Made by a program: the position numbers and the translations under genes. Below are positions 3,447 through 59,785 of a stretch of 64,000 nt of DNA, piece by piece (the stretch's first letter is position 1; every line of letters starts with the position of its first letter). Location: the NCBI GenBank assembly GCA_949358305.1, contig OX442322.1, positions 10,280,243-10,344,242 on the forward strand, given 5' to 3'. Under the pieces are notes generated by a model that did not search any database, had not been told where the DNA came from, and saw only the letters and a list, made by a program, of their open reading frames with translations. The DNA is from Strigamia acuminata. Lineage: Eukaryota; Arthropoda; Chilopoda; Geophilomorpha; Linotaeniidae.

Positions 3447-4219
3447 TGTTGCGAGCACGTGCAACATGGATTTTTGCTATCGCAATAGCGGATTTGCTTT
3501 AATTGATCAATTATTTAAGTTTGTGTTTAGTTAATAGTGCAGCTTAAGTTTTGGCTAAATGCTAAATGAATTTCGTGTAGTTTGTGAAGTAGGAGTGGTG
3601 AATTACCTGATTTAAGCTGTCTTTCTTAAGGTAATCTTGTATCTTTTCTTTGATTCTTTGGAGTTTGACTGCTTGGATTCGTCCAAAGAGTCGCTGCTGT
3701 TAGTTCCTAAGTTAGTTCATTTATTTGAAACACTTTGTCTTAATTTATTACGGTTTTGTGCCTTTTGTAATGATTTTATACTCGAAACTGTGTATTTTCT
3801 TGTATACGCTTTATCATTTTGTCACTAGAGGGACAATTCGCCTCTTGCGAGCGATTGTTGCCACTCGTTGCTAAGAGCCGCTGCTCTAATTGTTGTAGGT
3901 TGCGCAGCAACTACACTGACTTGTTATATAGTTTTTCTAGTCCTAAGTTTGTTAATTTTCTCCTCTCTTTTCATGTAATGTTTTGATAGATTTTAACTTT
4001 ACAATAAATTCGTTTTTGTGTGCTAACTTGAGCACAATAGTATTGAATTATCCCAACATGTTCAGCAGCTCACTTTACAGGTTTCACATCAAGGTTTTTC
4101 CTGTAATGGACTTTCTTCTTTGGGATTCTTCACAAGTTCTGGTAAATAGGGTTATTTATTTTAACCATTTTCTAATGTCTTCTAGAGTGCAACACGGTCT
4201 TCAAGCACTGCTAGAAACA
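3447..4219 (+). repeat. Alpha-3 5' LTR (773 bp)
   Basis: It starts with the near-palindrome TGTTGCGAGCACGTGCAACA, followed by the hairpin GCTATCGCAATAGC, and ends GCTAGAAACA. An AATAAA lies near 4003. An intron-like segment is at 4142-4185. A 63-codon ORF at 3637-3828 is conserved only because the LTRs are near-identical, so I do not call it a gene. Confidence 0.92.
4142..4185 (+). other. Intron-like 44-nt segment in Alpha LTR
   Basis: GTAAATAGG, then a T-rich stretch with TTTTAAC, then TGTCTTCTAG. The homologous segments at 33674-33717 and 26064-26107 are also 44 nt and begin GTAAGTAGG, a consensus 5' splice site. Splicing is inferred only. Confidence 0.35.
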
Positions 4220-4223
4220 AAGT

Positions 4224-4250
4224 TGGTGCCGTTTTGCTTGACCAGGATGC
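4224..4250 (+). promoter_or_regulatory. Alpha-3 primer-binding site (tRNA-His-like)
   Basis: Four bases after the LTR the sequence reads TGGTGCCGT, an insert TTTGCT, then TGACCAGGAT. Without the insert this is TGGTGCCGTGACCAGGAT, the complement of the 3' end of arthropod-type tRNA-His as I recall it. Position and TGG start fit an LTR-element minus-strand primer site. Confidence 0.6.
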
Positions 4251-4773
4251 TAGCCCAGTGTCGTCAGGTTGCCGTGAGTTCGAAAATGGGTGACATCGCC
4301 GCCATTTTCGGAAACAAGATCGGTAATTGCAGTGGAGGCTGCCAGCGCTTAGTGACGACAGACGCATCGTGTGAAGCCAGCGCATTCACAAGCGCAATGC
4401 GGGTGGCTGTCGGTCAAATCGAGAATTGCTGCTCGGGATGGCGAAATTCGTCTCAGATTCGCCCAGTACGAGTGCGTCGTATGGCGGAATGCAGCGACCA
4501 CTTCGGGATCGTCGATGGAGAGAGTTTCGGCAAGATTTTCCAGGATTTCGTGTGCCCAGTTCGTTGGACAGTACGAGGCTGTGTCCACACAGACGTGCGC
4601 CGTCTCACAAGCGACGCGGTCAAGATTCCAGTCGAGTTGTTTCTTCAGCAGCAGAGCGAGTTCTCTCAGTTGTACCGGACAGTCCCGCCAAAAGATTCGT
4701 GCCGTCAGCGCACACAGAATGGTCACCGAGTTTGGAAGAGTCACTCTTCAAGCGTCAGTCGGCCGCCAGTTAT

Positions 4774-4786
4774 ACACAACGCAATG
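4774..4786 (+). promoter_or_regulatory. ACACAACGCAATG motif, Alpha-3 (tRNA-His anticodon complement)
   Basis: This 13-mer is identical in all eight leaders in the window that retain the region. CACAACGCA is the reverse complement of TGCGTTGTG in the animal tRNA-His anticodon arm. It lies about 555 nt after the LTR. See the findings for the bipartite-primer hypothesis. Confidence 0.55.
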
Positions 4787-8703: not shown

Positions 8704-9476
8704 TGTTGCGAGCACGTGCAACATGGATTTTTGCTATCGCAATAGCGGATTTGCTTTAATTGATCAATTATTTAAGTTTGTGTTTAGTTAATAGTGCAGC
8801 TTAAGTTTTGGCTAAATGCTAAATGAATTTCGTGTAGTTTGTGAAGTAGGAGTGGTGAATTACCTGATTTAAGCTGTCTTTCTTAAGGTAATCTTGTATC
8901 TTTTCTTTGATTCTTTGGAGTTTGACTGCTTGGATTCGTCCAAAGAGTCGCTGCTGTTAGTTCCTAAGTTAGTTCATTTATTTGAAACACTTTGTCTTAA
9001 TTTATTACGGTTTTGTGCCTTTTGTAATGATTTTATACTCGAAACTGTGTATTTTCTTGTATACGCTTTATCATTTTGTCACTAGAGGGACAATTCGCCT
9101 CTTGCGAGCGATTGTTGCCACTCGTTGCTAAGAGCCGCTGCTCTAATTGTTGTAGGTTGCGCAGCAACTACACTGACTTGTTATATAGTTTTTCTAGTCC
9201 TAAGTTTGTTAATTTTCTCCTCTCTTTTCATGTAATGTTTTGATAGATTTTAACTTTACAATAAATTCGTTTTTGTGTGCTAACTTGAGCACAATAGTAT
9301 TGAATTATCCCAACATGTTCAGCAGCTCACTTTACAGGTTTCACATCAAGGTTTTTCCTGTAATGGACTTTCTTCTTTGGGATTCTTCACAAGTTCTGGT
9401 AAATAGGGTTATTTATTTTAACCATTTTCTAATGTCTTCTAGAGTGCAACACGGTCTTCAAGCACTGCTAGAAACA
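8704..9476 (+). repeat. Alpha-3 3' LTR (773 bp)
   Basis: It matches 3447-4219 along its length. It is preceded by TTCTTTGGCCGGCAACGC and followed by the ACAT target duplication. Confidence 0.92.
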
Positions 9477-12271
9477 ACATGAACCCACGAAACCGCTAAG
9501 AGCGAAGAATAACGAAAAAAGGAAAAGACTTAGTCAGGTGACTGAGCAAGCCAACTGCGACCTCTTGTCCACAGCGACAAGGAAACACGCGCACGCTGAC
9601 CCATCGACCACAACTTTATCTAACTAACAAGAGAAGAAACGGTTCAATTATCTAAAAAAAAACGAGCACGTTCCGTGCAAATAAATACCGGCAAAAACGT
9701 CAATATTATCACTAAAGCTATTGGCCAAGTATGGCCTCACAAAGGAAACTAACAAACTGGAACTGTGAAAACCAGCAGGAATTCCAAAACACTAAACTTT
9801 CTGCTTTTTTTTTTTTTTCGAAGAGGGAAAAAGTCCGTACCCAAATAATCAATCCATTTCCTCCCCACAAGAAAAGAAAGGAAAGGGACCTGCTTCTTTT
9901 TGAAGATCAACAGATGTCAAACGATACGGAAAAACGTTGGAAGCAGTGCAACTGCAACCAAATGAAGCGAAGCTACACTTCCTGCACGAAAACTAATCAC
10001 GTTGTTGAAAAGAAATTAAAACCGGTGGCTTTCCTTCAGCCGAGCTGCGCTTTACGAATGCGCCTTGAACAAAGAGGTACCCGATGGACATCGCATCCGC
10101 ACCCGGGCCACCGTGTAGCCTGTTGTGAGCAGACTACCACGAAGACTGAAACTTCTTTAACCGAAGGGGAAATAAAAACTAGATCTAGCTGAAACCCCAT
10201 GCTCCAATAAGGAGGCTACCGTATGAACGCTTGGCCCACCCCGAGTCGGAACCAATATGATTGAACCGAGAAACGAGAGAAGAGGGAGGGTTGCTTGACG
10301 TCCCTGATTGCGAGGGGCGTCACACGTAGATATGAGCACAAGGGCTTGCCAGTTGCCAACCGCATTCCTGGAACCGGTAAGCAACTGCAAGTCGAGAATT
10401 GACTCGCTCACACACCCATTGACGACATCTTCGATCAGCAAGCCGACTTCCGGAAATCGCCACTCTACTGAAAGCAAGTGTCGTCCAATGGCTAAAACGT
10501 GTTGCCGAGTGCCGGCGCCAAGAAGGCCGCACACACACGTCCTTCGACCCATCCTAGAGTGGGCTCCCTGCCTAGTGCATGTCTGCCTCACTGCAGAGCT
10601 AGGGATGAAAGACTAACAACAACTACTCAGTCGTGGGAAGCAAACGTAGAAATAGGGGCCGCCAAGAGGCGCAGGGACTTTGTCTCGGACACGACATCTA
10701 ACAGAGTATGGCAGTGCAAACCTGCCCTCTGAAACACATCGAATGGCAGTCCTTGCTGTGCACAGCAAGAACGACCATCCAAAACAAGTACCTATACCCT
10801 ACCGCCACGCCAGCTAGCCACAACCATAAAATAGCAAGCAAGCTATTTCCTAAACGAATAAGCTAGCGAAAATGCAGAACGTAACATCACCAGCGGTAGA
10901 CACTGGGTGCAGCGGTCAACAACAAAAACTGGACTTGTCCAGTGGGCGGTGCGGATCGGCTGCTCTAAACTTCCAGCACCGACAGAAGTCACACGCCTTT
11001 CTAAATCCAAACCCACTTGCAAACAAGTTGTGTAACAACCTAAACTAACAGAGATTGACGGACAGGTAAGAACCGACTGACCTCGCGGGCCAGTGCTTTC
11101 CCTGCAAAACACGAGCAGCAAGAGAACGAATCTCGTTCTAAAAACAAGAAACGTTCTACAAACACACGAATACAAACGGGTGTGCCCTCTCCCGGAGCGG
11201 AGAGATGACCGACACCAGAGCTCACGAGGAAACTCGAGCGGCACACAAAACTAAAACCGAGAACGGCGGGCTTCGACCGCCTCGCTGGTCCCGGACTGGC
11301 CTCATAACACCAGCGTCCGATCACCAATGACTAGCGGAAACCCCCAACTGAAAGGACCCCGAGCTGTGAACCCGGACCTTCTTGAAACAGACAAAAGCAA
11401 AAACAGATAGAGCCCCTTATAGAAGGCGGGACTCTGCAATAAGACGCAACATCATGAAAAAAAGGAGAGAGCAGATCACGAGGTATGACTCGTGCATCGC
11501 TACTCCGGCCACAAGAGCCATGGGACAGATTTCCCATCTCAACACGAAACCCCCTTTTTAACGGTAAAGGAGAAATTCGATTAACAACTGCTAAACGAAC
11601 TAAACGAAAAAGCCAAACGAATATAAGGCTAGCGGCAGAACATACTGGCGAACTCGTCTACAAGGGACCTGACAATCAAAACTTGAAGAGAACTAACTAT
11701 ATTAAGCATGAATCGGACTGAAAATCTCACCAAACGTGAGCAAATCGAGTAAAGCTAATAAATATACACTTGGCGGCAAAACTGTTCGACCGATGAGCGC
11801 ATTGGGCAGTCCTATCATGTTGCACAAGTGGCGCTGCTTCTTTCTGCTCGGTGAAAGATCGTCAATTGATCCCGGAGTGGCCACTGGAAACGGCAGACTC
11901 GATGATCGCCAACTTGACTGACGGCGCTCAGGTACGAACTGCATGGATGGCGACGGCGACCCACAGACTCGCACACGACCCACTGGAAGCTCCCGAGACA
12001 AATTTCGCCATCCTGTGCGGCGATTCTCGTCCCGCTTGTCAGCAATACACGCGGCGCTGGCCTCTCGCAACGAGGCGGTCACCACCTCATGCTGTGGCGC
12101 AAATCGCTTGTCTCCGTTGCATTTGACGACCACTCGCTGCCTAAGCACCTGACGTACTCGCACACGATGCGCCTGAGAGTGTTTGAGCACACTCAAAACT
12201 CGCTTGATGACCATCTGCACGGCGGCATTCGAATATGGCGGACTTGCCTTTTCATCTCGAAATTCGGCCGA

Positions 12272-13127: not shown

Positions 13128-13497
13128 TGTTGCAACTGGCCTGGGCTGGGCCAATTAAGAAACAAAGGACCTTCTTTTTGACCGCTGATTTTGTATAGTG
13201 GCTTTGAAGATTCAATGTCCATCTGTCAGGCATCCAGAACAGCAGGTACTTTGGAGGAAACAAGGAGTTTTTACTCCTCACTCATTCTGTTAAAATCCAC
13301 GGGAGTAAAAATAAACATCGTTTAATATCATTGAAAACATGAATAACAGAGATACAATGCAGCGCGAGAGCAGAAACAAAGCAGTTACACTTAAAACAAT
13401 AAACTATAACAAGTGCAATCACATAAGCATTGTATAAGGACATATGCACTTGAAAGTAAGGAAGCCTTAGGTCCCTAAAAAAGGGAGGAAATAAACC
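13128..13497 (-). repeat. Beta-1 3' LTR, second part
   Basis: Matches 24342-24711 of the 5' LTR (370 bp each). Together the two 3' pieces make 1412 bp, exactly 48 bp less than the 5' LTR. The missing 48 bp lies at the Alpha-4 junction. Confidence 0.92.
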
Positions 13498-14270
13498 TGT
13501 TTCTAGCAGTGCTTGAAGACCGTGTTGCACTCTAGAAGACATTAGAAAATGGTTAAAATAAATAACCCTATTTACCAGAACTTGTGAAGAATCCCAAAGA
13601 AGAAAGTCCATTACAGGAAAAACCTTGATGTGAAACCTGTAAAGTGAGCTGCTGAACATGTTGGGATAATTCAATACTATTGTGCTCAAGTTAGCACACA
13701 AAAACGAATTTATTGTAAAGTTAAAATCTATCAAAACATTACACATAAGAGAGGAGAAAATCAACGTTACTTAGGACTAGAAAAACTATATAACAAGTCA
13801 GTGTAGTTGCTGCGCAACCTACAACAATTAGAGCAGCAGCTCTTAGCAACGAGTGGCAACAATCGCTCGCAAGAGGCGAATTGTCCCTCTAGTGACAAAA
13901 TGATAAAGCGTATACAAGAAAATACACAGTTTCGAGTATAAAATCATTACAAAAGGCACAAAACCGTAATAAATTAAGACAAAGTGTTTCAAATAAATAA
14001 ACTAACTTAGGAACTAACAACAGCAACTCTTTGGACGAATCCAAGCAGTAAAACTCCAAAGAATCAAAGAAAAGATGCAAGATTACCTTAAGAAAGACAG
14101 CTTAAATCAGGTAATTCACCACTCACACGTCACAAACTACACGAAATTCATTTAACCTTTAGCCAAAACTTAAGCTGCACTATTAACTAAACACAAACTT
14201 AAATTAATGATTAATCAAAGCAAATCCGCTATTGCGATAGCAAAAATCCATGTTGCGCGTGCTCGCAACA
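13498..14270 (-). repeat. Alpha-4 3' LTR, divergent variant (773 bp)
   Basis: It has the standard ends but many substitutions against the 5' partner, including features of the Alpha-5 LTR subfamily such as GTTTGTGACGTG. Confidence 0.88.
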
Positions 14271-17200
14271 GCGTTGCCGGCCAAAGAAGAAGGGAGGGCA
14301 AGGCAGAAAACCGTTGAAGGAATTCCCCATCAAAACCAAGAGAACGGGAAGAAAAAGTATCGAAGCCAACTTTGTAAAAGTCGCGAAGGCAAAACCATAG
14401 ACACGAAGGCAAAAAGCTGTAACCTAAACATCCGAGACCTCTAGGAGCGTCCCAGGGTCAAAGGGCATTGAAGTCGGATCGCGGCCCAAAAACACCGGAG
14501 AGACGAAAGAAAAGAGAAGTTGCGTTGCGGCGCACTTCCTAACAACAACCAATAAAAACTAAAAGAAACTTAAAACACGAGAGAAGAAAGAGAAGGGTCA
14601 TGCCACGATGACCTAGTCCAGACACTAAGGGGCTACGGCGTCGCCAATAAACACGTGGCGCACACGCAGAAAACCTTTAGAAAATCCGACTGAACGGGTT
14701 TTCTAACTAAAACGACGTGAGAACATTGCGGGAGCTTGTCCGAAAGCTCAGTCTGTCAACTCGTAGACAGACGCTTAAACTAATGGAAACTAGAAGCAGG
14801 AAAACGAGAATCCTCGTCAAAGAGGAAGGGGTGCTGGTCAATAACACTTGCCTGACCACACACCAAGGTTCAAAGTCTCAGAACCGAGAACTAAACGTCG
14901 TCGAGGAAGGAAAACTGTCACAAAAACTCTTGACCGAGCATGGCCTCGCAAGGAACATGACATACATGAAGACCAGAAGAAACTGGGAACGTGAAAGAAA
15001 ACTAACTTGATAAACGGCAGGCTTCACCGCCTCGTTGACCTCGAGCCCGCGCTCAAGTGGCCACGTACCACGGAAACCTCCGCCCGCACGAAAACACGAG
15101 CCGCGAACTCAAACTTATTAAACTATTAAAGACGACCTTTTTCTAGAAAACAAGAAAAATGCAAACTAAGGGAATGAATGCGTTGACCCAAACCTATCGT
15201 CTGACAACCACCCAGCATTCGTACGAAGAACTAGAAAATGCCGTCAAGACCTAGGCACCACTCTTTCGCAAAGAGTGACCAACTAACAACTTACCCAAAG
15301 CCATGACCACCTAGCTAACATGATCACGCCAGAAGGAGGAAAAAGAGAACAAGAAGGCATGAAGCTCAGGCAATGCGAACCATTCGCAGCAACTGCCACG
15401 CAAAGGCGTTGACCGCACCCTGACTCGACATGAACCCACGAAACCGCTAAGAGCGAAGAATAACGAAAAAAGGAAAAGACTTAGTCAGGTGACTGAGCAA
15501 GCCAACTGCGACCTCTTGTCCACAGCGACAAGGAAACACGCGCACGCTGACCCATCGACCACAACTTTATCTAACTAACAAGAGAAGAAACGGTTCAATT
15601 ATCTAAAAAAAAAACGAGCACGTTCCGTGCAAATAAATACCGGCAAAAACGTCAATATTATCACTAAAGCTATTGGCCAAGTATGGCCTCACAAAGGAAA
15701 CTAACAAACTGGAACTGTGAAAACCAGCAGGAATTCCAAAACACTAAACTTTCTGCTTTTTTTTTTTTTTCGAAGAGGGAAAAAGTCCGTACCCAAATAA
15801 TCAATCCATTTCCTCCCCACAAGAAAAGAAAGGAAAGGGACCTGCTTCTTTTTGAAGATCAACAGGTGTCAAACGATACGGAAAAACGTTGGAAGCAGTG
15901 CAACTGCAACCAAATGAAGCGAAGCTACACTTCCTGCACGAAAACTAATCACGTTGTTGAAAAGAAATTAAAACCGGTGGCTTTCCTTCAGCCGAGCTGC
16001 GCTTTACGAATGCGCCTTGAACAAAGAGGTACCCGATGGACATCGCATCCGCCCCCGGGCCACCGTGTAGCCTGTTGTGAGCAGACTACCACGAAGACTG
16101 AAACTTCTTTAACCGAAGGGGAAATAAAAACTAGATCTAGCTGAAACCCCATGCTCCAATAAGGAGGCTACCGTATGAACGCTTGGCCCACCCCGAGTCG
16201 GAACCAATATGATTGAACCGAGAAACGAGAGAAGAGGGAGGGTTGCTTGACGTCCCTGATTGCGAGGGGCGTCACACGTAGATATGAGCACAAGGGCTTG
16301 CCAGTTGCCAACCGCATTCCTGGAACCGGTAAGCAACTGCAAGTCGAGAATTGACTCGCTCACACACCCATTGACGACATCTTCGATCAGCAAGCCGACT
16401 TCCGGAAATCGCCACTCTACTGAAAGCAAGTGTCGTCCAATGGCTAAAACGTGTTGCCGAGTGCCGGCGCCAAGAAGGCCGCACACACACGTCCTTCGAC
16501 CCATCCTAGAGTGGGCTCCCTGCCTAGTGCATGTCTGCCTCACTGCAGAGCTAGGGATGAAAGACTAACAACAACTACTCAGTCGTGGGAAGCAAACGTA
16601 GAAATAGGGGCCGCCAAGAGGCGCAGGGACTTTGTCTCGGACACGACATCTAACAGAGTATGGCAGTGCAAACCTGCCCTCTGAAACACATCGAATGGCA
16701 GTCCTTGCTGTGCACAGCAAGAACGACCATCCAAAACAAGTACCTATACCCTACCGCCACGCCAGCTAGCCACAACCATAAAATAGCAAGCAAGCTATTT
16801 CCTAAACGAATAAGCTAGCGAAAATGCAGAACGTAACATCACCAGCGGTAGACACTGGGTGCAGCGGTCAACAACAAAAACTGGACTTGTCCAGTGGGCG
16901 GTGCGGATCGGCTGCTCTAAACTTCCAGCACCGACAGAAGTCACACGCCTTTCTAAATCCAAACCCACTTGCAAACAAGTTGTGTAACAACCTAAACTAA
17001 CAGAGATTGACGGACAGGTAAGAACCGACTGACCTCACGGGCCAGTGCTTTCCCTGCAAAACACGAGCAGCAAGAGAACGAATCTCGTTCTAAAAACAAG
17101 AAACGTTCTACAAACACACGAATACAAACGGGTGTGCCCTCTCCCGGAGCGGAGAGATGACCGACACCAGAGCTCACGAGGAAACTCGAGCGGCACACAA

Positions 17201-18125
17201 AACTAAAACCGAGAACGGCGGGCTTCAACCGCCTCGCTGGTCCCGGACTGGCCTCATAACACCAGCGTCCGATCACCAATGACTAGCGGAAACCCCCAAC
17301 TGAAAGGACCCCGAGCTGTGAACCCGGACCTTCTTGAAACAGACAAAGGCAAAAACAGATAGAGCCCCTTATAGAAGGCGGGACTCTGCAATAAGACGCA
17401 ACATCATGAAAAAAAGGAGAGAGCAGATCACGAGGTATGACTCGTGCATCGCTACTCCGGCCACAAGAGCCATGGGACAGATTTCCCATCTCAACACGAA
17501 ATCCCCTTTTTAACGGTAAAGGAGAAATTCGATTAACAACTGCTAAACGAACTAAACGAAAAAGCCAAACGAATATAAGGCTAGCGGCAGAACATACTGG
17601 CGAACTCGTCTACAAGGGACCTGACAATCAAAACTTGAAGAGAACTAACTATATTAAGCATGAATCGGACTGAAAATCTCACCAAACGTGAGCAAATCGA
17701 GTAAAGCTAATAAATATACACGGGTTAAGTATAAACTATCAAAGATGCAAACTCTAACTAGACCCAAATAGAAAACGCCAGCAAAATTATACCAGCCACC
17801 TTATTTTATCTCAAAAGGGAAACGTGAAACAAGATCACAGTAAATCGTAAGAAAAAGGACAACAACTGTTACAGGGAATCTAAAGGGACTTTGCCGACAG
17901 CTCTACATAATAGACTATCGCCACAAGGCGCAAACATGCGAGGAAAACTAGAGAAAATGAGCTAAAAACGACCCTTATCCACTGTAAAAACCTAACGCCC
18001 CTTAAAACCCCAAAACGACCACAATTTCCCCCAAAAACCTTAAAATTAACAATAAAAGCGAGAAAATATTCGATAAAAACGAAAATGATCGACAAAAAAC
18101 GAAATCTTCATTGCCGACTCTTGTA

Positions 18126-18138
18126 CATTGCGTTGTGT
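18126..18138 (-). promoter_or_regulatory. ACACAACGCAATG motif, Alpha-4
   Basis: Exact 13-mer on the minus strand, about 615 nt into the leader. Confidence 0.55.
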
Positions 18139-18730
18139 TTAACTGGACTACAGGCGGCGTAACTGTCGCTTGAACATCCGAAGCTCGCAAGTTGCGTTGC
18201 AGCTTGGCGGATCCGTCTGGACACGTGGCACGCCAACACCTGACTGACGACAAGACGAGACCAATCTTGACTCGGCGGCAAAACTGTTCGACCGATGAGC
18301 GCATTGGGCAGTCCTATCATGTTGCACAAGTGGCGCTGCTTCTTTCTGCTCGGTGAAAGATCGTCAATTGATCCCGGAGTGGCCACTGGTACGAACTGCA
18401 TGGACGGCGACGGCGACCCACAGACTCGCACACGACCCACTGGAAGCTCCCGAGACAAATTTCGCCATCCTGTGCGGCGATTCTCGTCCCGCTTGTCAGC
18501 AATACACGCGGCGCTGGCCTCTCGCAACGAGGCGGTCACCACCTCATGCTGTGGCGCAAATCGCTTGTCTCCGTTGCATTTGACGACCACTCGCTGCCTA
18601 AGCACCTGACGTACTCGCACACGATGCGCCTGAGAGTGTTTGAGCACACTCGAAACTCGCTTGATGACCATCTGCACGGCGGCATTCGAATATGGCGGAC
18701 TTGCCTTTTCATCTCGAAATTCGGCCGACA

Positions 18731-18748
18731 TCGTGGTCAACGGCACCA
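18731..18748 (-). promoter_or_regulatory. Alpha-4 primer-binding site (tRNA-His-like)
   Basis: The minus strand reads TGGTGCCGTTGACCACGA, four bases from the LTR, the same as in Alpha-2. Confidence 0.6.
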
Positions 18749-18752
18749 ACTT

Positions 18753-19525
18753 TGTTTCTAGCAGTGCTTGAAGACCGTGTTGCACTCTAGAAGACATTAG
18801 AAAATGGTTAAAATAAATAACCCTATTTACCAGAACTTGTGAAGAATCCCAAAGAAGAAAGTCCATTACAGGAAAAACCTTGATGTGAAACCTGTAAAGT
18901 GAGCTGCTGAACATGTTGGGATAATTCAATACTATTGTGCTCAAGTTAGCACACAAAAACGAATTTATTGTAAAGTTAAAATCTATCAAAACATTACATG
19001 AAAAAAGAGGAGAAAATTAACAAACTTAGGACTAGAAAAACTATATAACAAGTCAGTGTAGTTGCTGCGCAACCTACAACAATTAGAGCAGCGGCTCTTA
19101 GCAACGAGTGGCAACAATCGCTCGCAAGAGGCGAATTGTCCCTCTAGTGACAAAATGATAAAGCGTATACAAGAAAATACACAGTTTCGAGTATAAAATC
19201 ATTACAAAAGGCACAAAACCGTAATAAATTAAGACAAAGTGTTTCAAATAAATGAACTAACTTAGGAACTAACAGCAGCGACTCTTTGGACGAATCCAAG
19301 CAGTCAAACTCCAAAGAATCAAAGAAAAGATACAAGATTACCTTAAGAAAGACAGCTTAAATCAGGTAATTCACCACTCCTACTTCACAAACTACACGAA
19401 ATTCATTTAGCATTTAGCCAAAACTTAAGCTGCACTATTAACTAAACACAAACTTAAATAATTGATCAATTAAAGCAAATCCGCTATTGCGATAGCAAAA
19501 ATCCATGTTGCACGTGCTCGCAACA
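18753..19525 (-). repeat. Alpha-4 5' LTR (773 bp)
   Basis: Nearly identical to the Alpha-2 and Alpha-3 LTRs, unlike its own 3' partner. Confidence 0.9.
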
Positions 19526-20567
19526 AGCCTAACAACTGAAAACCTACATTAAATGTAATAAATCAGTTTTACAATCAATCTTTAGATGCTATATTCAAGA
19601 ACCCATTAGAAATGCATTAAATCCAAGTAAATATTCATGAAACACAAGAAAAAGAATAAATACAGAGGTTTTCTACCAATCAAATTACAGCTCTACAGTG
19701 AGTGCAGTATTTACATCAGAAAGCATTATCATCATGCAATAAAACTTAATACTATTACATTGCTAATTACACAAATGCTCAATTACTCACAAATACCTCA
19801 TAAAACCCACAAAAAGGTAATTTTAAATACATCTTTACAGAGACACTTAAGCCACGCCCACAGCAATGGCTGACAAGGAGAGAGAGATTGCTCATATGAG
19901 CACAAAAGCAATCCAATTAACCTTCCAGGACAAGTGAGAGGCATTTTAAGGTAACAAATTAATTAATAGGCATACAAACAACTAATATAAGTGGTTTTTA
20001 ATCCGTGACAGGACCTGGAACATTTCTACCAGCTGTCCAGAGGCGGACACGCATGGGAGGCGATCATTTGCACGCATTTTGGACGTTTTCACACCTGAAA
20101 CGAGCGGTGTTGAACTCACATGCGCACAATAGACACACAGGACATTAAACAAGGTAGGAAAATTGCTAATAAACTGATAAAATGCACTGAATGCATTTAA
20201 ACATTAATAATAACAGTTAGATCTCTTCCAGTCCACATTTGAATTGAGCGAGATGCATCCAGCTTGTCGGACTGCTTACACTAATGAACTGGAAATAGAT
20301 AACACTCAAGAAACAGGTAAAATTTGCACAAAACGTTAATAAGTGACAACAAAAACTTACAAAGCAATATTTTGACATTTCAGATAATTAATTCACATGG
20401 CAAACGCTTTTATACGGGGAAATATTCAGATAATTGACAAATTCGAACTCAAACACACAAGAATATTATTAAAAACGTTTTGTCTGTATTTCCAGGAAAT
20501 TGCCACATGTATAGATTTTCTTCCTAGCCGGTAAACGTTTTGACAACTCCATTTGTTGCTAGCAACA
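19526..20567 (-). repeat. Beta-1 3' LTR, first part
   Basis: Matches 24760-25801 of the 5' LTR (1042 bp each) and ends at the insertion of Alpha-4. Confidence 0.92.
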
Positions 20568-20600
20568 AAGATTGCCGGCCGAAAGAAAGAAACCGACATC

Positions 20601-23276
20601 CTATGTAATTCTTTGACGTAATAGGTTTGAAATCCATTCAGGTATTCTTTTACCAACAGCGACCAAGCTTAACTTGACCAGTGTATTTATCATCTGTTTC
20701 TGTTTCAGTGGATCTTTTGAATAGAAACCATAGTCTTGATGAGTGAAAGAAAATTTCTGATTTTTGCCTACAAACGACTTCATCTTTGTGCAAGGCGATC
20801 TATATCGATACTTAGGACGACGTGCATCTGCTTCCTTTACCAATTCGATTTCTGCGCCAACATTTCGATCTTGTTTGATAATAGTTTGACTCAAAACGTC
20901 TCTTGTATTTCTGAATAGTAAAGGTTTTTTGTCTATTTTCAGCAACTCGAGAAGCTTTTCCTTTTTTCCCAAGAACATTGGGCCTTTAATCGATTGAATT
21001 TCCTCTAGATTACTTCGAATCGAGCCCCAGAAATTTAAAAAGTCCGGGTGGGATAACCTTACACTCCAATTCCGAGTCCAACTCTTCTCCACACGGTAAC
21101 GAGGAATATTTTCCCGGCCGAAAGAACCAAGTAGCCAGCTCTTGACTGCATTTCCAGATCCTTCCTTTCGAGAAAGCATGGTCTTTGATGATTTGGGAAG
21201 GTTTGAGTTGACTGTGCAGAAACAACTTGACTTTTCATCTGAAATTTGACTCAACTTCTTGCGATGGACGACTTCCGATGCTTGAGTTGCGATTAGGACC
21301 GGATTTTTTGATTTGTTCCGGATAATTTGGCCTTGTTCTACCGAGAGACACGATACAGCTGCGCTAGTATCCGAATATTCATCCAAATCGTGGTTTGTGT
21401 TTCCAATCGAACCATTGGCAATCCAACCAAATATCGTGCGAGACAAACCAAATGTTTTGCTAATTCGTTTTCTTCCACAGAGAGCAACTTTCCAAAAGTT
21501 GTCACCTCCTATTAGGAAGTCAATTTCATCCGTGACTGACGGATGCGGTTCAGCTAATTCCAATCCAAACGCCAATATTTTCTTGATAGTTTCGGCGTTT
21601 GTCAGTCCACTGACTGTGGGCAACGCTTTAGCTTTTAACGCATCAAATGTAAGCTTTTGATTTCCGTGACGTGACTGTAGCTCTACTGGAATTACGTCGT
21701 AATTAGCGGGAACCGCATGTTCATCATCCAATCGCTTCATCATGTATGCTACGGATCCCTTCTTTGTCATCCGAAGGCATTCGACCAATTTGGTAGATAC
21801 GTACGACCGGTGACTCCCGGGGTCAAGAAGACCTCGGACGATAACTGGCTCCTTGTTTTTTCGGATTAATTGAGCTGAAAATACCATCAACTGAATACTC
21901 GATGCAACTGCTAAAGATACATTTGCAGAGACACTGGATTGGGTGGGAATTTCTTCTTTCTTTTCAGCAGGTTTCTCTTCACCTTTGGAGCAGATTATCG
22001 TGTGATGTCGACCCCCACATTTCCTGCAACTGAAGCTTACCAAGCAGTCTTTCGCCGAATGATTTCTGCGGAGGCAATTAAAGCATAAGCGCTTTTGTTT
22101 AGCGATTTCTGTTCGTTCCGCAACAGTAAGAGAAGCGTCGCATTTCGCATTATAATGTGATCCGTCACAAAAAACGCAGACGATTTTTCCCGACCCCATT
22201 GGACCGGATGGTTTAGGTTTGTCCTTCCCTGACTGTGAGGTGAAACAGGTTGACATGGTGCCTTTTCGCGCAAAATCCGACTCTTTCGGTGACTTTTCTG
22301 ATTTTTCTTGTTTTTTCTTAGATGCTTTTGCTTTCAGAACCGTTTCTTCAGCGAGCTCAGCAATCCGCAGTTCTTCCGCAACAAAGTCCACAAACTTTAG
22401 TACGTTGTCCATGCGACCCTGGTTGGTGCGGTGGTAACGTTTCGCTATGTCAGGTGGAAACTTTTCCAGAAGGTCAGGCACGAGGAAAAGACCAGCTGTT
22501 CGGATAGGTACATGTAGTTTATCGAGCGTTTTTAACGAGGATGAAATCGATGTCAACAATTGCTTGACCGGCAGGACTGGATACATCTCGTGTACCGCCT
22601 TGAGTTCGCGTATCGACTTTACCAACGCATTCTTCTGATTAATTTCAGATCCATAACGACTTCTTAGCTCTGCCAATGCAAGAGAGTAAGAGTCTTTGGT
22701 TAGTGGAAAAGATCCAACGACCTTTTCCGCATCTCCGGTACAGGTTGACTTCAAGTATTGTAGTTTCTCGATGTCCGACAATTCATCGTTCTTGTCGACA
22801 GCAGCATCGAACATGTCTATATATGACTGGAACTTCAGTGGGCTTCCATCATATTTGGTGATCTCAATCTTGGGTAGGCGTAAGTTATGCTTCTTTGACG
22901 ACACCGATGTGAATCCGGTGTTGAACGTCTGTGAAGCAATGGCACTAGCTCCCAAGGAGGTTGAACTGGTCCGGGCGACTTCCACTCGCTTCTTCAAGTG
23001 GTTGACCTTCGATCCAATCTTGTCCAAACGAACGATGAAATCCAGATATTTCTCTCTTGCCAGGTGCGGTTGGAGAACGGTGAGATCATCTATCAATGTA
23101 GCGTGTTGCTCCTGAATTGATTGGGAAATGGCATCCAACTCCCCAAAATCCTGCATGTTTGTTGACGTTCCCAACAAGTCTTCTATGTTCCCTATCTTCG
23201 ATTTCCATAAGATTTCCCATTCTTCTATCTGATCTGCGGACGGCGGCGCGACTGGAGTGGTTACTGGAAGTGACAT
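20601..23276 (-). CDS. BEL/Pao Gag-protease polyprotein of Beta-1
   Basis: The 891-residue ORF is a retrotransposon structural polyprotein with a fused aspartic protease. Residues 130-290 resemble the DUF1759 capsid region (YDGSPLKFQSYIDMF, LSDIEKLQYLKS). Three zinc knuckles follow: CVFC at 367-379, CFNC at 398-411, CRKC at 417-429. The protease region resembles DUF1758, with active-site loop LLDPGSHRSYVS at 483-494, LIGGDNFW at 588-595 and FGWIANGSI at 616-624. The active site has DPG where DSG or DTG is usual. Residues after about 625 are not recognised; RT would normally follow. The start ATG at 23276 aligns with the Delta-1 Gag start: the landmark cysteines and DPG share the same residue numbers. 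The frame is intact. Confidence 0.92.
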   Translation of the reverse strand: MSLPVTTPVAPPSADQIEEWEILWKSKIGNIEDLLGTSTNMQDFGELDAISQSIQEQHATLIDDLTVLQPHLAREKYLDFIVRLDKIGSKVNHLKKRVEVARTSSTSLGASAIASQTFNTGFTSVSSKKHNLRLPKIEITKYDGSPLKFQSYIDMFDAAVDKNDELSDIEKLQYLKSTCTGDAEKVVGSFPLTKDSYSLALAELRSRYGSEINQKNALVKSIRELKAVHEMYPVLPVKQLLTSISSSLKTLDKLHVPIRTAGLFLVPDLLEKFPPDIAKRYHRTNQGRMDNVLKFVDFVAEELRIAELAEETVLKAKASKKKQEKSEKSPKESDFARKGTMSTCFTSQSGKDKPKPSGPMGSGKIVCVFCDGSHYNAKCDASLTVAERTEIAKQKRLCFNCLRRNHSAKDCLVSFSCRKCGGRHHTIICSKGEEKPAEKKEEIPTQSSVSANVSLAVASSIQLMVFSAQLIRKNKEPVIVRGLLDPGSHRSYVSTKLVECLRMTKKGSVAYMMKRLDDEHAVPANYDVIPVELQSRHGNQKLTFDALKAKALPTVSGLTNAETIKKILAFGLELAEPHPSVTDEIDFLIGGDNFWKVALCGRKRISKTFGLSRTIFGWIANGSIGNTNHDLDEYSDTSAAVSCLSVEQGQIIRNKSKNPVLIATQASEVVHRKKLSQISDEKSSCFCTVNSNLPKSSKTMLSRKEGSGNAVKSWLLGSFGRENIPRYRVEKSWTRNWSVRLSHPDFLNFWGSIRSNLEEIQSIKGPMFLGKKEKLLELLKIDKKPLLFRNTRDVLSQTIIKQDRNVGAEIELVKEADARRPKYRYRSPCTKMKSFVGKNQKFSFTHQDYGFYSKDPLKQKQMINTLVKLSLVAVGKRIPEWISNLLRQRIT

Positions 23277-23881
23277 TTTTCAGATAAGTAAACTTTGACA
23301 ACAGGAATTGATTCTTTGTGTAAAAATAAAATCTCCTTTTCCAGTTGGATCCCAACCCAACGGACGACACACTAAGGGCAAAGCAGAGACACCAACAAAC
23401 AAAAAGGACGGATTTGACTTACACACTCGAATTTCGACCTCGAAATCCCACGTTCAAGGATCGATGCGACAGCGCTTAATTTATGTGAGCTAACTATTGA
23501 TTTTGGAGATGACAAAGACCCCCAAAACCCTCGAGTCACAATAAATTTCGATACGCTTATCTGTACGGAATTGCACTCTGGCGTATTTAAGCGACAATTG
23601 CTCTCTGCCTAATGCAGTAATGGCGAGCGAACTTGAGTATTTGCCCAGATTCAATTGTAGATTTAACAACCAAATTGCAAACAAACAACTCCAAACTGAA
23701 TTATTTTCGAAAATCTTTTCTTATTAGACCAAAACTGATCACTTGAATAAGACTTTGCTAAATAAACGATTTGTTTTCCCCCAAAGACCTGACTGAATGC
23801 TGGACATATACTTAAGAAGATTATATTTAATTTATTTGAGACAAAATTATAAATATAAATCTTTGTTTCAGATGGACATCG

Positions 23882-23894
23882 CATTGCGTTGTGT
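23882..23894 (-). promoter_or_regulatory. ACACAACGCAATG motif, Beta-1
   Basis: Exact 13-mer, about 448 nt after the LTR, in a leader otherwise unrelated to that of the Alpha elements. Confidence 0.6.
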
Positions 23895-24318
23895 GATGAT
23901 TGACGACTAGTTGACAGCCAGGAACGTCCGCGACCAGTGGTGCGCTGCGGCTTGAACTCCACACTGAGGACGTTGTCCACTCGAAGGAGATCCACTGTCA
24001 CGACGACACAAAACGGGAAAAGGACGATTTGCTCCAAACAGGCGAATTCACTGCACGGCTCACTGTCACTTGGCACAAACTCAAGTGCGCACTTGAAGAC
24101 AGACGGCGCTAAGCAGCTGGACACACCTGATGCACTTGAAACACACCTTTTGGCACTTTCACAAGATACGTGACCGCAACTGACCGGAAATACAGGCGTA
24201 CAACGGCGCACGGACGACACGCATACAAAAAGCACTGGTGCTTGACACTTGAAATGAGAGCAAATCATAAATCACACAATAAACCTGGCACAGACTCGAA
24301 TTCGCGATGACACGAAGT

Positions 24319-24337
24319 ATCCTGGTCACTGGGACCA
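24319..24337 (-). promoter_or_regulatory. Beta-1 primer-binding site (tRNA-His-like)
   Basis: The minus strand reads TGGTCCCAGTGACCAGGAT, starting four bases from the LTR. TGGT and GTGACCAGGAT match the complement of tRNA-His, with a changed centre one base longer. Confidence 0.65.
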
Positions 24338-24341
24338 AAAA

Positions 24342-25801
24342 TGTTGCAACTGGCCTGGGCTGGGCCAATTAAGAAACAAAGGACCTTCTTTTTGACCGCT
24401 GATTTTGTATAGTGGCTTTGAAGATTCAATGTCCATCTGTCAGGCATCCAGAACAGCAGGTACTTTGGAGGAAACAAGGAGTTTTTACTCCTCACTCATT
24501 CTGTTAAAATCCACGGGAGTAAAAATAAACATCGTTTAATATCATTGAAAACATGAATAACAGAGATACAATGCAGCGCGAGAGCAGAAACAAAGCAGTT
24601 ACACTTAAAACAATAAACTATAACAAGTGCAATCACATAAGCATTGTATAAGGACATATGCACTTGAAAGTAAGGAAGCCTTAGGTCCCTAAAAAAGGGA
24701 GGAAATAAACCATCTGATACAAATAGACTACCGTACAGGGCATCAAGTACATTTGCTTAAGCCTAACAACTGAAAACCTACATTAAATGTAATAAATCAG
24801 TTTTACAATCAATCTTTAGATGCTATATTCAAGAACCCATTAGAAATGCATTAAATCCAAGTAAATATTCATGAAACACAAGAAAAAGAATAAATACAGA
24901 GGTTTTCTACCAATCAAATTACAGCTCTACAGTGAGTGCAGTATTTACATCAGAAAGCATTATCATCATGCAATAAAACTTAATACTATTACATTGCTAA
25001 TTACACAAATGCTCAATTACTCACAAATACCTCATAAAACCCACAAAAAGGTAATTTTAAATACATCTTTACAGAGACACTTAAGCCACGCCCACAGCAA
25101 TGGCTGACAAGGAGAGAGAGATTGCTCATATGAGCACAAAAGCAATCCAATTAACCTTCCAGGACAAGTGAGAGGCATTTTAAGGTAACAAATTAATTAA
25201 TAGGCATACAAACAACTAATATAAGTGGTTTTTAATCCGTGACAGGACCTGGAACATTTCTACCAGCTGTCCAGAGGCGGACACGCATGGGAGGCGATCA
25301 TTTGCACGCATTTTGGACGTTTTCACACCTGAAACGAGCGGTGTTGAACTCACATGCGCACAATAGACACACAGGACATTAAACAAGGTAGGAAAATTGC
25401 TAATAAACTGATAAAATGCACTGAATGCATTTAAACATTAATAATAACAGTTAGATCTCTTCCAGTCCACATTTGAATTGAGCGAGATGCATCCAGCTTG
25501 TCGGACTGCTTACACTAATGAACTGGAAATAGATAACACTCAAGAAACAGGTAAAATTTGCACAAAACGTTAATAAGTGACAACAAAAACTTACAAAGCA
25601 ATATTTTGACATTTCAGATAATTAATTCACATGGCAAACGCTTTTATACGGGGAAATATTCAGATAATTGACAAATTCGAACTCAAACACACAAGAATAT
25701 TATTAAAAACGTTTTGTCTGTATTTCCAGGAAATTGCCACATGTATAGATTTTCTTCCTAGCCGGTAAACGTTTTGACAACTCCATTTGTTGCTAGCAAC
25801 A
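24342..25801 (-). repeat. Beta-1 5' LTR (1460 bp)
   Basis: On the minus strand it begins TGTTGCTAGCAACA, itself a palindrome, and ends GGCCAGTTGCAACA. It contains positions 24712-24759, which the 3' copy has lost. Confidence 0.92.
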
Positions 25802-26141: not shown

Positions 26142-27038
26142 AGGGCGAAGCGGCAAGCGGTCTCTCGTCGGGCGGTAATCAAGTCGAAGGAGATTTGGGA
26201 AAAATACGTCGCGGGAGGTCGGTTGGTCCGAAAGCGTCGGTCGAGCCGTCGGAAGGGACAATGGCGTCGCGGGACCGGAATGAAGAAGGTTGCGGAAATT
26301 AAGCAGTCGGCGTATAAAGAAGGAGGAACGATCGGAACCCTGAATCTCGGGCGAGCCTAGAAGTTATACACAACGCAATGACACTAGAAGAGAAGAGTCT
26401 TGTGTTTTCTTTTTTCGAATTGTTTATTTGTTTTAAGTTAGTTTAGAGTTGTTTTAGGATTGTTTTGGGGGTTTTTGTTTCGTTCGGCTAGTGTATGTGT
26501 ATTGCGGGGTTGTTATGTCGGATTCGATTTGGTGTGCGGTATATTGGTAGTCTTAATTTGTGGGGCGTGCTCTGTTTCAGGGCTCAACGAGGGTCGTAAG
26601 ACACTCTTGCCTAATGAAGCGAGTCATTGAAAAACGCCTTGTACAGTTTACTTTAGTGTGTATGATTTTTAGACTAGCATATTTTCGAGTTGTTTCCGAC
26701 CTGACAATTTCGTGAGCGCCGTTCGATATGGAGTATTTCCGTTACGATCTTAATTTTTAAGTGTTGAGTTTTGCGAATCACATTCAAAGTTCGAAGTGTG
26801 TCTTTTTGGGGGGATTGATTTCCAATTGCATATGCATAATTAGTCGGTTTTTTTTGTGAACTGGATTTTCTTTGGAGATTGAAGTTTCTAGTCAGTCCTT
26901 TTTTTGTCACGTTGATGAATTAAAGGTAAAAAGCTTTGAGTTAAATTAGAGTTTCAATTGCGAGTTTAGAAATTAATTTCCGACGTTTGCGAAAGTTGCA
27001 TTCAAGCATGAACAAGTCCACGTTAAATAGAACAGGGG
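26142..27038 (+). mobile_element. Gamma-1 leader segment
   Basis: Sequence between the Alpha-1 end and Alpha-5. It contains the exact 13-mer at 26368-26380, marking it as the 5' leader of a retroelement whose LTR and primer-binding site lie left of the window. It ends at GGGG (27035-27038), duplicated at 38949-38952, and joins in register with 38953 onward. The ORF crossing from the Alpha-1 LTR (25944-26360) is not a gene. Confidence 0.65.
26368..26380 (+). promoter_or_regulatory. ACACAACGCAATG motif, Gamma-1
   Basis: Exact 13-mer, preceded by AGTTAT as in Alpha-3. Confidence 0.55.
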
Positions 27039-27133: not shown

Positions 27134-27905
27134 TGTTTCTAGCAGTGCTTTGTGGCCGTGTGGCACTCTAGAAGACAATCGGAAATGGTTATAACAAATA
27201 AACCTACTTACTAAAACTTGTGATGAGCTCCAAAAAAGATGATGCATTGCAGGAGAAATCCTGCTTGAAATCCCTGCAAAGTGGCCTAACAAGTGTCTGG
27301 AAGAACTCACCACTAATGTGTTAAATAACACATAAACAAACCGAATTTATTGTAAAGTTAACATCTATCAAAATACACAGAAAAAGAGAGGAGAAAATTA
27401 CATATCTTAACCCTAGAAAACTACATAACAAGTCAGAGTAGTTGCTGCGCAACCTACAACAATTAGAGCAGCGGCTCTTAGCAACGAGTGGCAACAATCG
27501 CTCGCAAGAGGCGAATTGTCCCTCTAGTGACAAAATGATAAAGCGTATACAAGAAAATACACAGTTTCGAGTATAAAATCATTACAAAAGGCACAAAACC
27601 GTAATAAATTAAGACAAAGTGTTTCAAATAAATGAACTAACCTAGGAACTAACAGCAGCGACTCTTTGGACGAATCCAAGCAGTAAAACTCCAAAGAATC
27701 AAAGAAAAGATACAAGATTACCTTAAAAAAGACAGCTTAAATCAGGTAATTCACCGCTCCCACTTCACAAACTACACGAAATTCATTTAACATTTAGCCA
27801 AAACTTAAGCTGCACTATTAACTAAATACAAACTTAAATAATTGATCAATTAAAGCAAATCCGCTATTGCGATAGCAAAAATCCATGTTGCACGTGCTCG
27901 CAACA
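27134..27905 (-). repeat. Alpha-6 3' LTR (772 bp)
   Basis: Standard TGTTGC and AAACA ends on the minus strand; matches 32310-33081. Confidence 0.9.
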
Positions 27906-31726: not shown

Positions 31727-31739
31727 CATTGCGTTGTGT
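31727..31739 (-). promoter_or_regulatory. ACACAACGCAATG motif, Alpha-6
   Basis: Exact 13-mer about 570 nt into the leader, conserved although the adjacent bases (CGAAA upstream, TACTGG downstream) differ from Alpha-3. Confidence 0.55.
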
Positions 31740-32280: not shown

Positions 32281-32305
32281 ATCCTGGTCAAGCAAAACGG
32301 CACCA
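32281..32305 (-). promoter_or_regulatory. Alpha-6 primer-binding site (tRNA-His-like)
   Basis: The minus strand reads TGGTGCCGT, insert TTTGCT, TGACCAGGAT, as in Alpha-3 and Alpha-5. Confidence 0.6.
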
Positions 32306-33755: not shown

Positions 33756-33782
33756 TGGTGCCGTTTTGCTTGACCAGGATGC
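33756..33782 (+). promoter_or_regulatory. Alpha-5 primer-binding site (tRNA-His-like)
   Basis: Starts TGGTGCCGT four bases after the LTR and ends TGACCAGGATGC, identical in design to Alpha-3. Confidence 0.6.
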
Positions 33783-34404: not shown

Positions 34405-34417
34405 ACACAACGCAATG
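34405..34417 (+). promoter_or_regulatory. ACACAACGCAATG motif, Alpha-5
   Basis: Exact 13-mer about 654 nt after the LTR. Confidence 0.55.
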
Positions 34418-48664: not shown

Positions 48665-48677
48665 GGGAGCTGTTTTT

Positions 48678-48697
48678 TGGTACCGTGATTCCAGGAT
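48678..48697 (+). promoter_or_regulatory. Epsilon-2 primer-binding site (tRNA-His-like)
   Basis: TGGTACCGTGATTCCAGGAT, 13 bases after the LTR. TGGT.CCGTGA and CCAGGAT match the tRNA-His complement, separated by two extra bases. Confidence 0.6.
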
Positions 48698-48836
48698 TTC
48701 GTGCACGTGTGTACAGCGCGCATGGAAAAGAGGTCATTTGGATGTTCAGCAAGTGATTCAAGTGGGTTGGTGCGTGCCAGTTGGTTCGTTTGTACGGCTG
48801 GTTCCGTGAGCGGCCGGCATCAAGTGCGCACGCCGA

Positions 48837-52332: not shown

Positions 52333-52364
52333 AAAAAAAAAAAAATAGAGAGCGGGGGGGGGGG
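52333..52364 (+). repeat. Homopolymer pair (A13 and G11) in Zeta-1
   Basis: A run of 13 A at 52333-52345 and a run of 11 G at 52354-52364. Probably low-complexity drift; assembly length may be unreliable. Confidence 0.7.
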
Positions 52365-53684: not shown

Positions 53685-53770
53685 GTTTGATGGACCAACG
53701 GTTAACCAACTAAACTTTCTTCTACTCTAATTCTTGGGCTTGATGGACCAACTGTTAACCAACTAAACCT
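53685..53770 (-). repeat. Zeta-1 hairpin units of the Gamma/Epsilon type (2)
   Basis: On the minus strand, two units of the form TTTAGTTGGTTAAC...GTTGGTCCATCAA. They match the units at 40030-40126 and 59597-59766. Confidence 0.6.
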
Positions 53771-54182: not shown

Positions 54183-55474
54183 CCATCTAACTAGAAAACA
54201 CATAAAACAGTCTGAAAGGAGACTGATTGCTACCTTTCCGCCTTCTCTAATTAAACAGCTAGTGTGGCTTGCGCTATCTCAACCCACGCACGGGTTCTTC
54301 TAAAATCGTCACACACTAAAACTTGCTTAAGCTGCTAAATGAAGCGGAAATCCCCCAAAACTGAATCAAATCATTTCTACATGAGGACAGCTCACTGCAA
54401 GGCTGGCGGACAAACTCAGTGGCCAATTGAGGCGAGATCCCTCGCCTCCACTCTCCCACACAACCCGAATAGCAGACTGAGTGTATAAAAGGAGAAGGGG
54501 CGACCACTCTTCTGCAAAAATCAAAGACAAGCAGAAGAGCGCGGGACCTCTTTCCAGCAAGCCTCAAACCTGGCGGCCAAGCAGCCGTCCGAAAACCTCG
54601 CAGTTCACAATAGAACCGACCTCATGAACTAAATCAACTATTAAAGCTAGGAGCACTCTAAAAAATTGCAAGCCAGCAATCATGACTGGGGTGAAGTGAC
54701 CAGGCGCTGCCAACCTTTCAAAAAATGCCAAAAACTAAATTATTTCGAAAATTCATTAGTTTGGCTCTGACTAAACTTGTATGAGCAAGGGAAAACTTAC
54801 TCTCAGGTCGCTTTCACTCAAGACACTGAGTCTGCTCACACAGTCAACACACCTGGACAAGACTTCCCAGTCTTTCCCATCCAAAAAAATTCTTAATCCT
54901 AACAAATTCCTTCTTCTTAAACTAACATAAGCCAAGGAAAACGATTTCTTAATTCTTTTCTTCAGGAACTTGGCTTGAATCTTTGCTGCAGAGTCAAACG
55001 ACCACCGTCCAGCTCTTTAGGCTTGTCTTAGCGGACACCGTGACGTGTCCTTGCTGACTGGCGCTCTTTCTTTCACAAATAGAAAGACTACTCTAAAATT
55101 ATCGCTTTTCAAGTGAACAGCTCACTGAGAGGCGGGCGGTCAAGCACTGTGTTCACAGAGGCGCAGTTCCTCGCTCTCACTCCTTTACCCAACCCGAAAA
55201 GCAGGTAAAATACTAAAAACAAAGAGAGAAACGACCAATTTCCTGCGACAATTCAACTCAAGCAAGGAAGCGCGGGACTGTTCTCAACAACCTCAAGACA
55301 TTGGTCAGTGCCGACCGACCCAACTCGCAGTTCACATCAAGAACTGACACCAAACGAAACTAAATCTACCCTTATTTGCTAACAATTATATTCAAAACGA
55401 ATAATAAACTCTTAAATATTAACAAATATAAACTTAAATGAAAATTTAACAACAAAAATCTTCATATCAGGACC

Positions 55475-55487
55475 ATTGCGTTGTGTA
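55475..55487 (-). promoter_or_regulatory. ACACAACGCAATG motif, Zeta-1
   Basis: Exact 13-mer, about 332 nt into the leader. Confidence 0.6.
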
Positions 55488-55785
55488 TCTGTGCCTTGAT
55501 GAGTACGAAACCAACTTGGCGTCGTCTGCTCCAACCTTTCCTAGGCGAGCACGCGCGCGTCTTTCGCCTACTCTTCTGCACCATCCTGTGGTTGCGGAAT
55601 TGCAGCTCCCGTTGCTCTCTTTGCAATGCAGTGGAGACAATCCTCGTTGCTTTCCTCTCCCATCTTGAAGAAGACCGCTTGGCTCCATCAATGCACACGG
55701 AAACTCGCAAAATGGCGACGCACGTGATGTTTTATTTCGAGCAAACTCGCCTTTTTTCCAAATCTGCTCATCTCGGCAATTTTCA

Positions 55786-55812
55786 GGTTCGAATCCATGG
55801 TTCACGGCACCA
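55786..55812 (-). promoter_or_regulatory. Zeta-1 extended primer-binding site (tRNA-His acceptor and T-arm)
   Basis: The minus strand reads TGGTGCCGTGA, then ACCAT, then GGATTCGAACC. The first 11 nt complement the tRNA-His 3' end and the last 11 nt complement its T-arm (GGTTCGAATCC). This is the clearest evidence in the window that the primer is tRNA-His. Confidence 0.75.
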
Positions 55813-55819
55813 AAAACGA

Positions 55820-57012: not shown

Positions 57013-57063
57013 CCAGAGAGTCACGTGAGAGCGGCCATTGACGTCCTGAGTCTGCCAAGTCAA

Positions 57064-57076
57064 ACACAACGCAATG
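57064..57076 (+). promoter_or_regulatory. ACACAACGCAATG motif, Epsilon-2
   Basis: Exact 13-mer, about 223 nt after the LTR once Zeta-1 is removed. Confidence 0.6.
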
Positions 57077-59766: not shown

Positions 59767-59785
59767 ATAGAAAAAGCATTTAGAG

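Follow-up and report, generated by a model that had tools for sequence, protein, structure and literature searches.

Excerpts of PMC7793103, PMC11181671 and PMC5371799 report that some retroelement RNAs contact their primer tRNA at a second place besides the primer-binding site (PBS), with examples in HIV-1, where the anticodon loop is contacted, and in Ty1 and Ty3, which have a split PBS and contacts to the T and D arms. HIV-1 resembles the elements described below in that the proposed partner of the element RNA, besides the PBS, is the anticodon arm of the primer; the HIV-1 loop, however, lies upstream of the PBS, whereas the motif studied here lies 175-654 nt downstream, is collinear with the tRNA and matches it over 8-17 nt. 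The HIV-1 contact has itself been debated, since not all NMR and cryo-EM studies saw it (excerpts of PMC7793103). In Ty3, which is primed by tRNA-iMet, the PBS likewise consists of two widely separated RNA parts (PMC5371799, in excerpt), but these are ~4.8 kb apart and involve the acceptor stem, T and D arms, while here both parts are in the 5' leader and the second corresponds to the anticodon arm. Additional segments of Ty1 RNA likewise pair with tRNA-iMet beyond the PBS (same excerpts of PMC5371799), although they contact the T and D regions and the PBS parts are closely spaced, unlike the arrangement here. In copia and Ty5, too, the element is complementary to a tRNA anticodon region (excerpts of PMC5371799 and PMC10886601), and there this match constitutes the PBS itself; here a separate PBS for the tRNA 3' end is present as well. 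With the Belpaoviridae our elements have in common LTRs, a PBS, DUF1759 and 4-bp target-site duplications (TSDs; four of seven elements), but the excerpted ICTV profile of that family gives tRNA-Arg or tRNA-Gly as primers and mentions no second contact (PMC8742986), whereas here the primer site is that of tRNA-His. In the open-licence literature we found no description of a second primer contact in BEL/Pao elements.

The window that we analysed is a 64-kb stretch of Strigamia acuminata DNA (64,000 nt) carrying eight leaders with the 13-mer ACACAACGCAATG. An earlier note on this DNA had reported one copy per leader, and we recovered all eight as exact matches (0 expected in 100 shuffles), with one start, given as 55475, corrected to 55474; no further copy was found in the window when up to two mismatches were allowed, and the 9-mer ACACAACGC contained in the 13-mer also matched at eight window sites only, against 0.62 expected. 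The distance from LTR to 13-mer measured 220-653 nt (taken across a nested insertion for the element at 57064), in good agreement with the proposed range of about 220-655 nt. Genome-wide there are 624 copies of the 13-mer against five of the reversed pattern, a 125-fold excess in 237.5 Mb, which speaks against a word common outside leaders. The claim that the 13-mer has no copy elsewhere nevertheless holds for the window, and for ACACAACGC there too, but not for the genome, in which other repeats also carry it. All motif data come from this one genome.

With gaps allowed, a tRNA-His PBS immediately follows the LTR in seven of the eight window elements. In three of them it is split by 7 nt and reads TGGTGCCG-TTTTGCT-TGACCAGGAT, 18 nt in all. 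These are element A (PBS 4224..4248, forward strand; LTRs 3447-4220 and 8704-9477, 100% identical, TSD ACAT; motif 4774..4786, forward, which with the next 5 nt gives 17 nt of complementarity to tRNA-His positions 20-36 in gene numbering), element D (PBS 32281..32305, reverse strand; LTRs 27134-27906 and 32310-33082, 100% identical, TSD GTGC; motif 31727..31739, reverse, 16 nt including following bases) and element B34 (PBS 33756..33780, forward; LTRs, as aligned spans, 33078-33751 and 38275-38948, 99.85% identical; motif 34405..34417, forward, 17 nt including following bases). The other four PBSs have two or three changes each. In element C the PBS lies at 18730..18748 on the reverse strand, with a 1-nt insertion and one mismatch, between LTRs at 13498-14270 and 18753-19525 that are 96.9% identical, and the motif at 18126..18138 (reverse) extends to 15 nt with the following bases. 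Element Z has its PBS, TGGTCCCAGTGACCAGGAT, at 24319..24337 and its motif at 23882..23894 (12 nt), both on the reverse strand, together with an 891-aa ORF on that strand (20601..23276) containing DUF1759 (PF03564). The PBS of element E, at 55784..55812 on the reverse strand, extends into the T arm; its LTRs (aligned spans 48834-50029 and 55817-57012) are 100% identical and its motif is at 55474..55486 (reverse, 12 nt). Element G has a PBS at 48678..48698 (forward), LTRs at 47086-48664 and 62361-63939 (100% identical, TSD CTTT) and a leader interrupted by element E, beyond which its motif lies at 57064..57076 (forward, 13 nt). Two nestings are seen among these LTR elements, C apparently lying inside the 3' LTR of Z (13128-25801) and E inside the leader of G (47086-63939). 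The eighth element, with its motif at 26368..26380 (forward, 12 nt) and an LTR end at 26142, showed no PBS beside the LTR, although its relatives elsewhere in the genome have one. The earlier statement that all primer sites resemble TGGTGCCGTGACCAGGAT is thus accurate for seven of eight elements if gaps are allowed, but not for the element at 26368 and not without gaps: no window site lay within three ungapped mismatches of TGGTGCCGTGACCAGGAT, because the sites carry insertions or substitutions. Paired LTRs were found for seven of the eight elements, with TG...CA ends in A, C, D, G and Z; a 4-bp TSD was present at A, D, G and Z, and none was found when looked for at C, E and B34.

As to the host tRNA, exact places of the anticodon arm numbered nine in the genome, among which ARAGORN calls seven distinct tRNA-His genes. 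The host arm contains TGCGTTGTG, with six of the seven detected genes reading ACATTGCGTTGTGG; these six are identical throughout the tRNA body (...TTAGTACATTGCGTTGTGGCCGCAA...), and the seventh (L009) has one difference, CCT for CAT. None of the seven genes encodes the CCA end. CATTGCGTTGTGT, the reverse complement of the 13-mer, agrees with tRNA-His from position 25 to position 36 and differs only in its last base, which stands opposite G37, and CACAACGC is complementary to positions 29-36. With the genes in hand, the proposed complementarity of the leader motif to the host arm is borne out: the 9-nt complement of the earlier note, whose author used the human arm, is a real match, but its length of nine follows only from that human sequence, and against the host genes the eight window copies are contiguously complementary over 17, 15, 12, 12, 16, 17, 12 and 13 nt, in window order. 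The conserved second match to tRNA-His therefore holds, and is stronger than first claimed.

To sample leaders independently of the motif, we fetched by place 40 loci (L099-L138) from among at least 100 genome places with an exact 18-nt tRNA-His PBS. ACACAACGC lay 175-654 nt downstream of the PBS in 27 of the 40, and its antisense in none, so the motif accompanies the His PBS in sense orientation. The exact core was absent from the other 13, one of which (L116) has a single substitution; L104 is related to the motif family of L044 and has no recognisable core, and in L122 and L118 the family sequence ends at or soon after the PBS, so that several of the core-less loci look like fragments of LTR and PBS lacking a leader. 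Two unusual arrangements were seen in this set: at L102, and in shorter form at L110, an LTR end with PBS stands between what by eye are inverted copies of one sequence, with no recognisable interior, and L109 has a tandem pair of PBSs that overlap at a single base, with one difference in the second copy.

In 28 of these loci, representing 26 clusters, CACAACGC occurred in 16 (shuffle mean 0.14, maximum 1), compared with at most three loci for any non-overlapping antisense-tRNA 8-mer and with three, two and two for the reversed, complement and sense-tRNA controls. A word count made blind to the tRNA returned ACACAACGC as the top shared 9-mer, present in 11 of 23 unrelated leader groups, where 50 shuffles gave maxima of 3-6; the core leads only from 8-mers up, T-rich words outranking it among 7-mers. 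When 12 representatives from 11 groups were aligned on the core, flank identity was 0.17-0.49, and with flanks this close to random, conservation is confined to A followed by CACAACGC; the invariant part is thus 9 nt long and the last four bases of the 13-mer depend on the family. Combining both sets of loci, 17 leader groups had no blastn link outside PBS and motif (1e-8, 60 nt), although not all are independent, because two of them, L044 and L086, have identical 22 nt following the motif. These data uphold the earlier description of the leaders as mostly unrelated and speak against sharing by overall homology. Evidence that the earlier note had named as telling against its interpretation (a host arm lacking the sequence, a 13-mer common outside leaders, leaders alike throughout) was looked for on all three counts and not obtained, and the interpretation is supported.

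In the same 12 representatives contiguous complementarity to tRNA-His spans 8-15 nt, and only 8-11 nt in seven of them, and opposite U28 there is always a purine (8 A, 4 G), which fits an A-U or G-U pair. The first A of the core faces G37 and is nonetheless conserved, which means that pairing is not the only thing acting at this base. Calculated duplexes between motif and tRNA have energies of -15.9 to -28.4 kcal/mol, with shuffled means of -8.0 to -11.6; they are stronger than the shuffle mean in all 17 groups, a comparison in which the motif itself had been picked for complementarity, and weaker than the best of 200 shuffles in six of the 17. Local folding favours an unpaired core only weakly, with a mean percentile of 0.65 and 13 of the 17 groups exceeding the median.

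Starting from the 13-mer instead, we read 68 loci (L001-L008 and L039-L098), a non-random set selected on position and on the nucleotide that follows the motif. At a score of at least 23, a His PBS was found upstream in 42; the remaining 26 had no match at this threshold, one of them (L095) showing a degraded PBS. The consecutive series L059-L078, comprising every one of the 20 listed copies in which T follows the motif at a copy-dense contig end (C1, 64.2-65.7 Mb), has a His PBS 204-610 nt upstream in 19 (in L071 by a score of 23). The 13-mer also appears in the L003 family, in L006/L008, in L047/L049/L052 and in single loci, and these we set aside as other repeats or chance, there being no His PBS in the upstream stretch read. 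In L008, a GGGCCCC-rich repeat with its 13-mer at 25248283 of contig C1 and no His PBS, the 13-mer is followed by TACTA and so makes a 17-nt complement of tRNA-His; its relative L006 has the 13-mer alone.

Behind ten motif-bearing His-PBS loci we searched the carrier regions for protein domains and found DUF1759 in eight, RVT_1 in three (one above cut-off) and DUF1758 in three (two above cut-off); of the regions without a match, L166 showed no family and L168 had no ORF to scan. Taking DUF1759 to be the BEL/Pao gag, and DUF1759, DUF1758 and reverse transcriptase together to be marks of that superfamily, as we assume, the carriers fit BEL/Pao LTR retrotransposons by LTRs and TSDs as well as by coding domains. 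One region, L167 (G000:C5:14361700-14364900, behind the motif-bearing locus L125), contains a 927-aa open frame with DUF1759 and DUF1758 in which residues 782-927 match thymidine kinase strongly (PF00265, E 6.8e-44), and which looks like a captured thymidine kinase gene fused to gag. A scan of viral contigs for other carriers gave no match with the host PBS or with the gag-pol query, and we regard the single viral-contig match to another form of His PBS (L169), which has no tRNA or core nearby, as chance.

Six of the eight window elements have no internal sense ORF above 223 aa, and the leader ORFs of 269-293 aa in four window elements start within the LTR. Five of the six non-coding elements (A, D, B34, E and G) have LTRs that are 99.85-100% identical and the sixth, C, 96.9%, and all have kept the motif; because young non-coding copies retain it, the motif is probably a cis-acting RNA signal. 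A coding function was rejected: the frame of the motif relative to the open leader ORFs differs (A, B34 and C versus D), and several frames are open simultaneously. Nor does the ATG at the end of the 13-mer look like a gag start, as a stop follows within 2-22 codons in seven of eight copies; the frame from the ATG of the copy at 23882 is open throughout the 34 codons read.

As a control we used a group of elements with a different primer, consisting of 20 loci chosen by the BEL/Pao Peptidase_A17 domain, 19 of which have the PBS TGGTGCCGAAACCC, and of a second set of 17 usable loci fetched by this PBS, which we take to be that of tRNA-Phe. CACAACGC occurred in none of the 17, in 16 of which an ORF of at least 100 aa starts 42-232 nt after the PBS start. 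TTCAGTCTA, the complement of what we presume to be the tRNA-Phe anticodon arm, ending at position 36, was present at three of the 17 (L173, L181 and L187, one family among nine groups), which as one such word is a weak sign; its distance in the L173 family is 33 nt from the start of the PBS and 15 nt from the end. All 20 Peptidase_A17 loci lacked TTCAGTCT in the stretch read, which for the 19 having that PBS reaches 148-305 nt beyond it. No host tRNA-Phe gene was found: the pattern GACTGAAGATC gave 98 places, the nine fetched of which were not tRNA genes, nor was a tenth place examined besides, and a 5'-half pattern had no match. At these loci the other primer group gave no sign that a second contact is general. 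The PBSs of the two groups have their first 8 nt, TGGTGCCG, in common.

We consider it likely from these comparisons that the motif is a second, cis-acting contact for tRNA-His which, with the PBS, forms a split, collinear primer-binding site in BEL/Pao leaders. The PBS adjoining the LTR would be bound by the 3' end of host tRNA-His, and a leader site 175-654 nt further downstream would pair with its nucleotides 29-36, or in some families with 25-36 or 20-36. Nucleotides 29-36 comprise the anticodon together with U32, U33 and the 5' strand of its stem. The two contacts are collinear with the tRNA, its 3' end lying on the upstream PBS and lower-numbered nucleotides on the downstream motif, so the stretch between them could loop out and no knot would be needed. 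We infer that such pairing occurs in vivo, that one tRNA would serve both sites, and that its role may be to select and hold tRNA-His, also where the PBS is interrupted, and to discriminate against the other BEL/Pao group's tRNA; as both groups share TGGTGCCG, the second contact could supply identity.

Variation of the PBS fits copying from a mature tRNA-His primer. Three PBSs are exact antisense tRNA-His over 38 nt (L138, C13:7754733), 36 nt (L119, C4:15949418) and 27 nt (L118), the longest ending at position 38, next to G37, with two bases ambiguous by shared sequence; these long PBSs, together with a CCA complement that the genes lack, point to mature tRNA-His as the primer. They look as if plus-strand synthesis had copied the primer past its usual stop. 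Within a single context group the PBS may be exact or drifted (L062 versus L059, L064 versus L066, L088 versus L050). The motif, unlike the PBS, is not renewable by primer copying, and its constancy would therefore need selection.

Several other explanations of the motif have to be weighed. It might bind tRNA-His for a different step, such as packaging, protection from RNase H, the timing of reverse transcription or control of translation, which would rest on the same complementarity data and for which the HIV-1 contact between A-rich loop and anticodon, reported as protecting the RNA (excerpts of PMC7793103), is a precedent; we think this improbable as the explanation, given that the motif accompanies the His PBS in unrelated leaders and was found at none of 17 loci of the other primer group, which argues for a role in priming, although the two kinds of role are not mutually exclusive. 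It is very unlikely that the motif serves as an additional start for reverse transcription, primed by a tRNA-His 5' half whose end lies at the anticodon. Such priming is known for copia and Ty5 (PMC5371799, PMC10886601, in excerpt) and position 36, at which the complementarity stops, would be a possible end for a 5' half, but a PBS for the mature 3' end exists, with the CCA complement and at least 100 exact 18-nt matches in the genome, three loci match the tRNA over 27-38 nt, so that it is probably this 3' end that primes, and the motif is 175-654 nt away from this PBS. The window elements themselves were rejected as half-tRNA-primed elements of the copia type, seven of eight having a 3'-end PBS that adjoins the LTR.

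If the motif were a signal for protein binding, splicing or DNA regulation, and its match to the tRNA a coincidence, this could account for conservation of the unpaired first A and of a tendency to A before it, and for the drop in G+C that directly follows the motif in all eight window leaders; yet the top 9-mer contains an antisense 8-mer of the very tRNA used as primer, for which 68 of 65,536 8-mers qualify, and the window copies match tRNA-His over 12-17 nt, leaving this reading highly improbable. We give almost no credence to the motif being shared only as a relic of common descent or as a captured piece of antisense tRNA: those carriers with readable ORFs do look like one superfamily, but 9 nt stayed while the flanks became near-random in identity, and leaders are not enriched for any other stretch of antisense tRNA.

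Returning to the split primer-binding site, the complementarity stops at position 36, before G37, a position that presumably carries m1G. It is possible, though we put this forward only tentatively, that primer identity is determined chiefly by the anticodon-arm contact and not by the PBS, the PBS being free to split after the shared 8 nt because a motif tuned to the mature tRNA holds tRNA-His; the tRNA would then act as a clamp with the whole leader looped out, and in further primer groups, such as the L173 family, an equivalent might exist for their own tRNA.

Use of the anticodon arm by retroelements has been debated mostly on the basis of one virus. Here many unrelated leaders keep little besides a complement of that arm, and they provide a natural test system of multiple families, with the prediction that the motif should change with the host tRNA. 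As judged from sequence comparison, our findings suggest that a large, tRNA-His-primed group of BEL/Pao elements grips its primer at two places.
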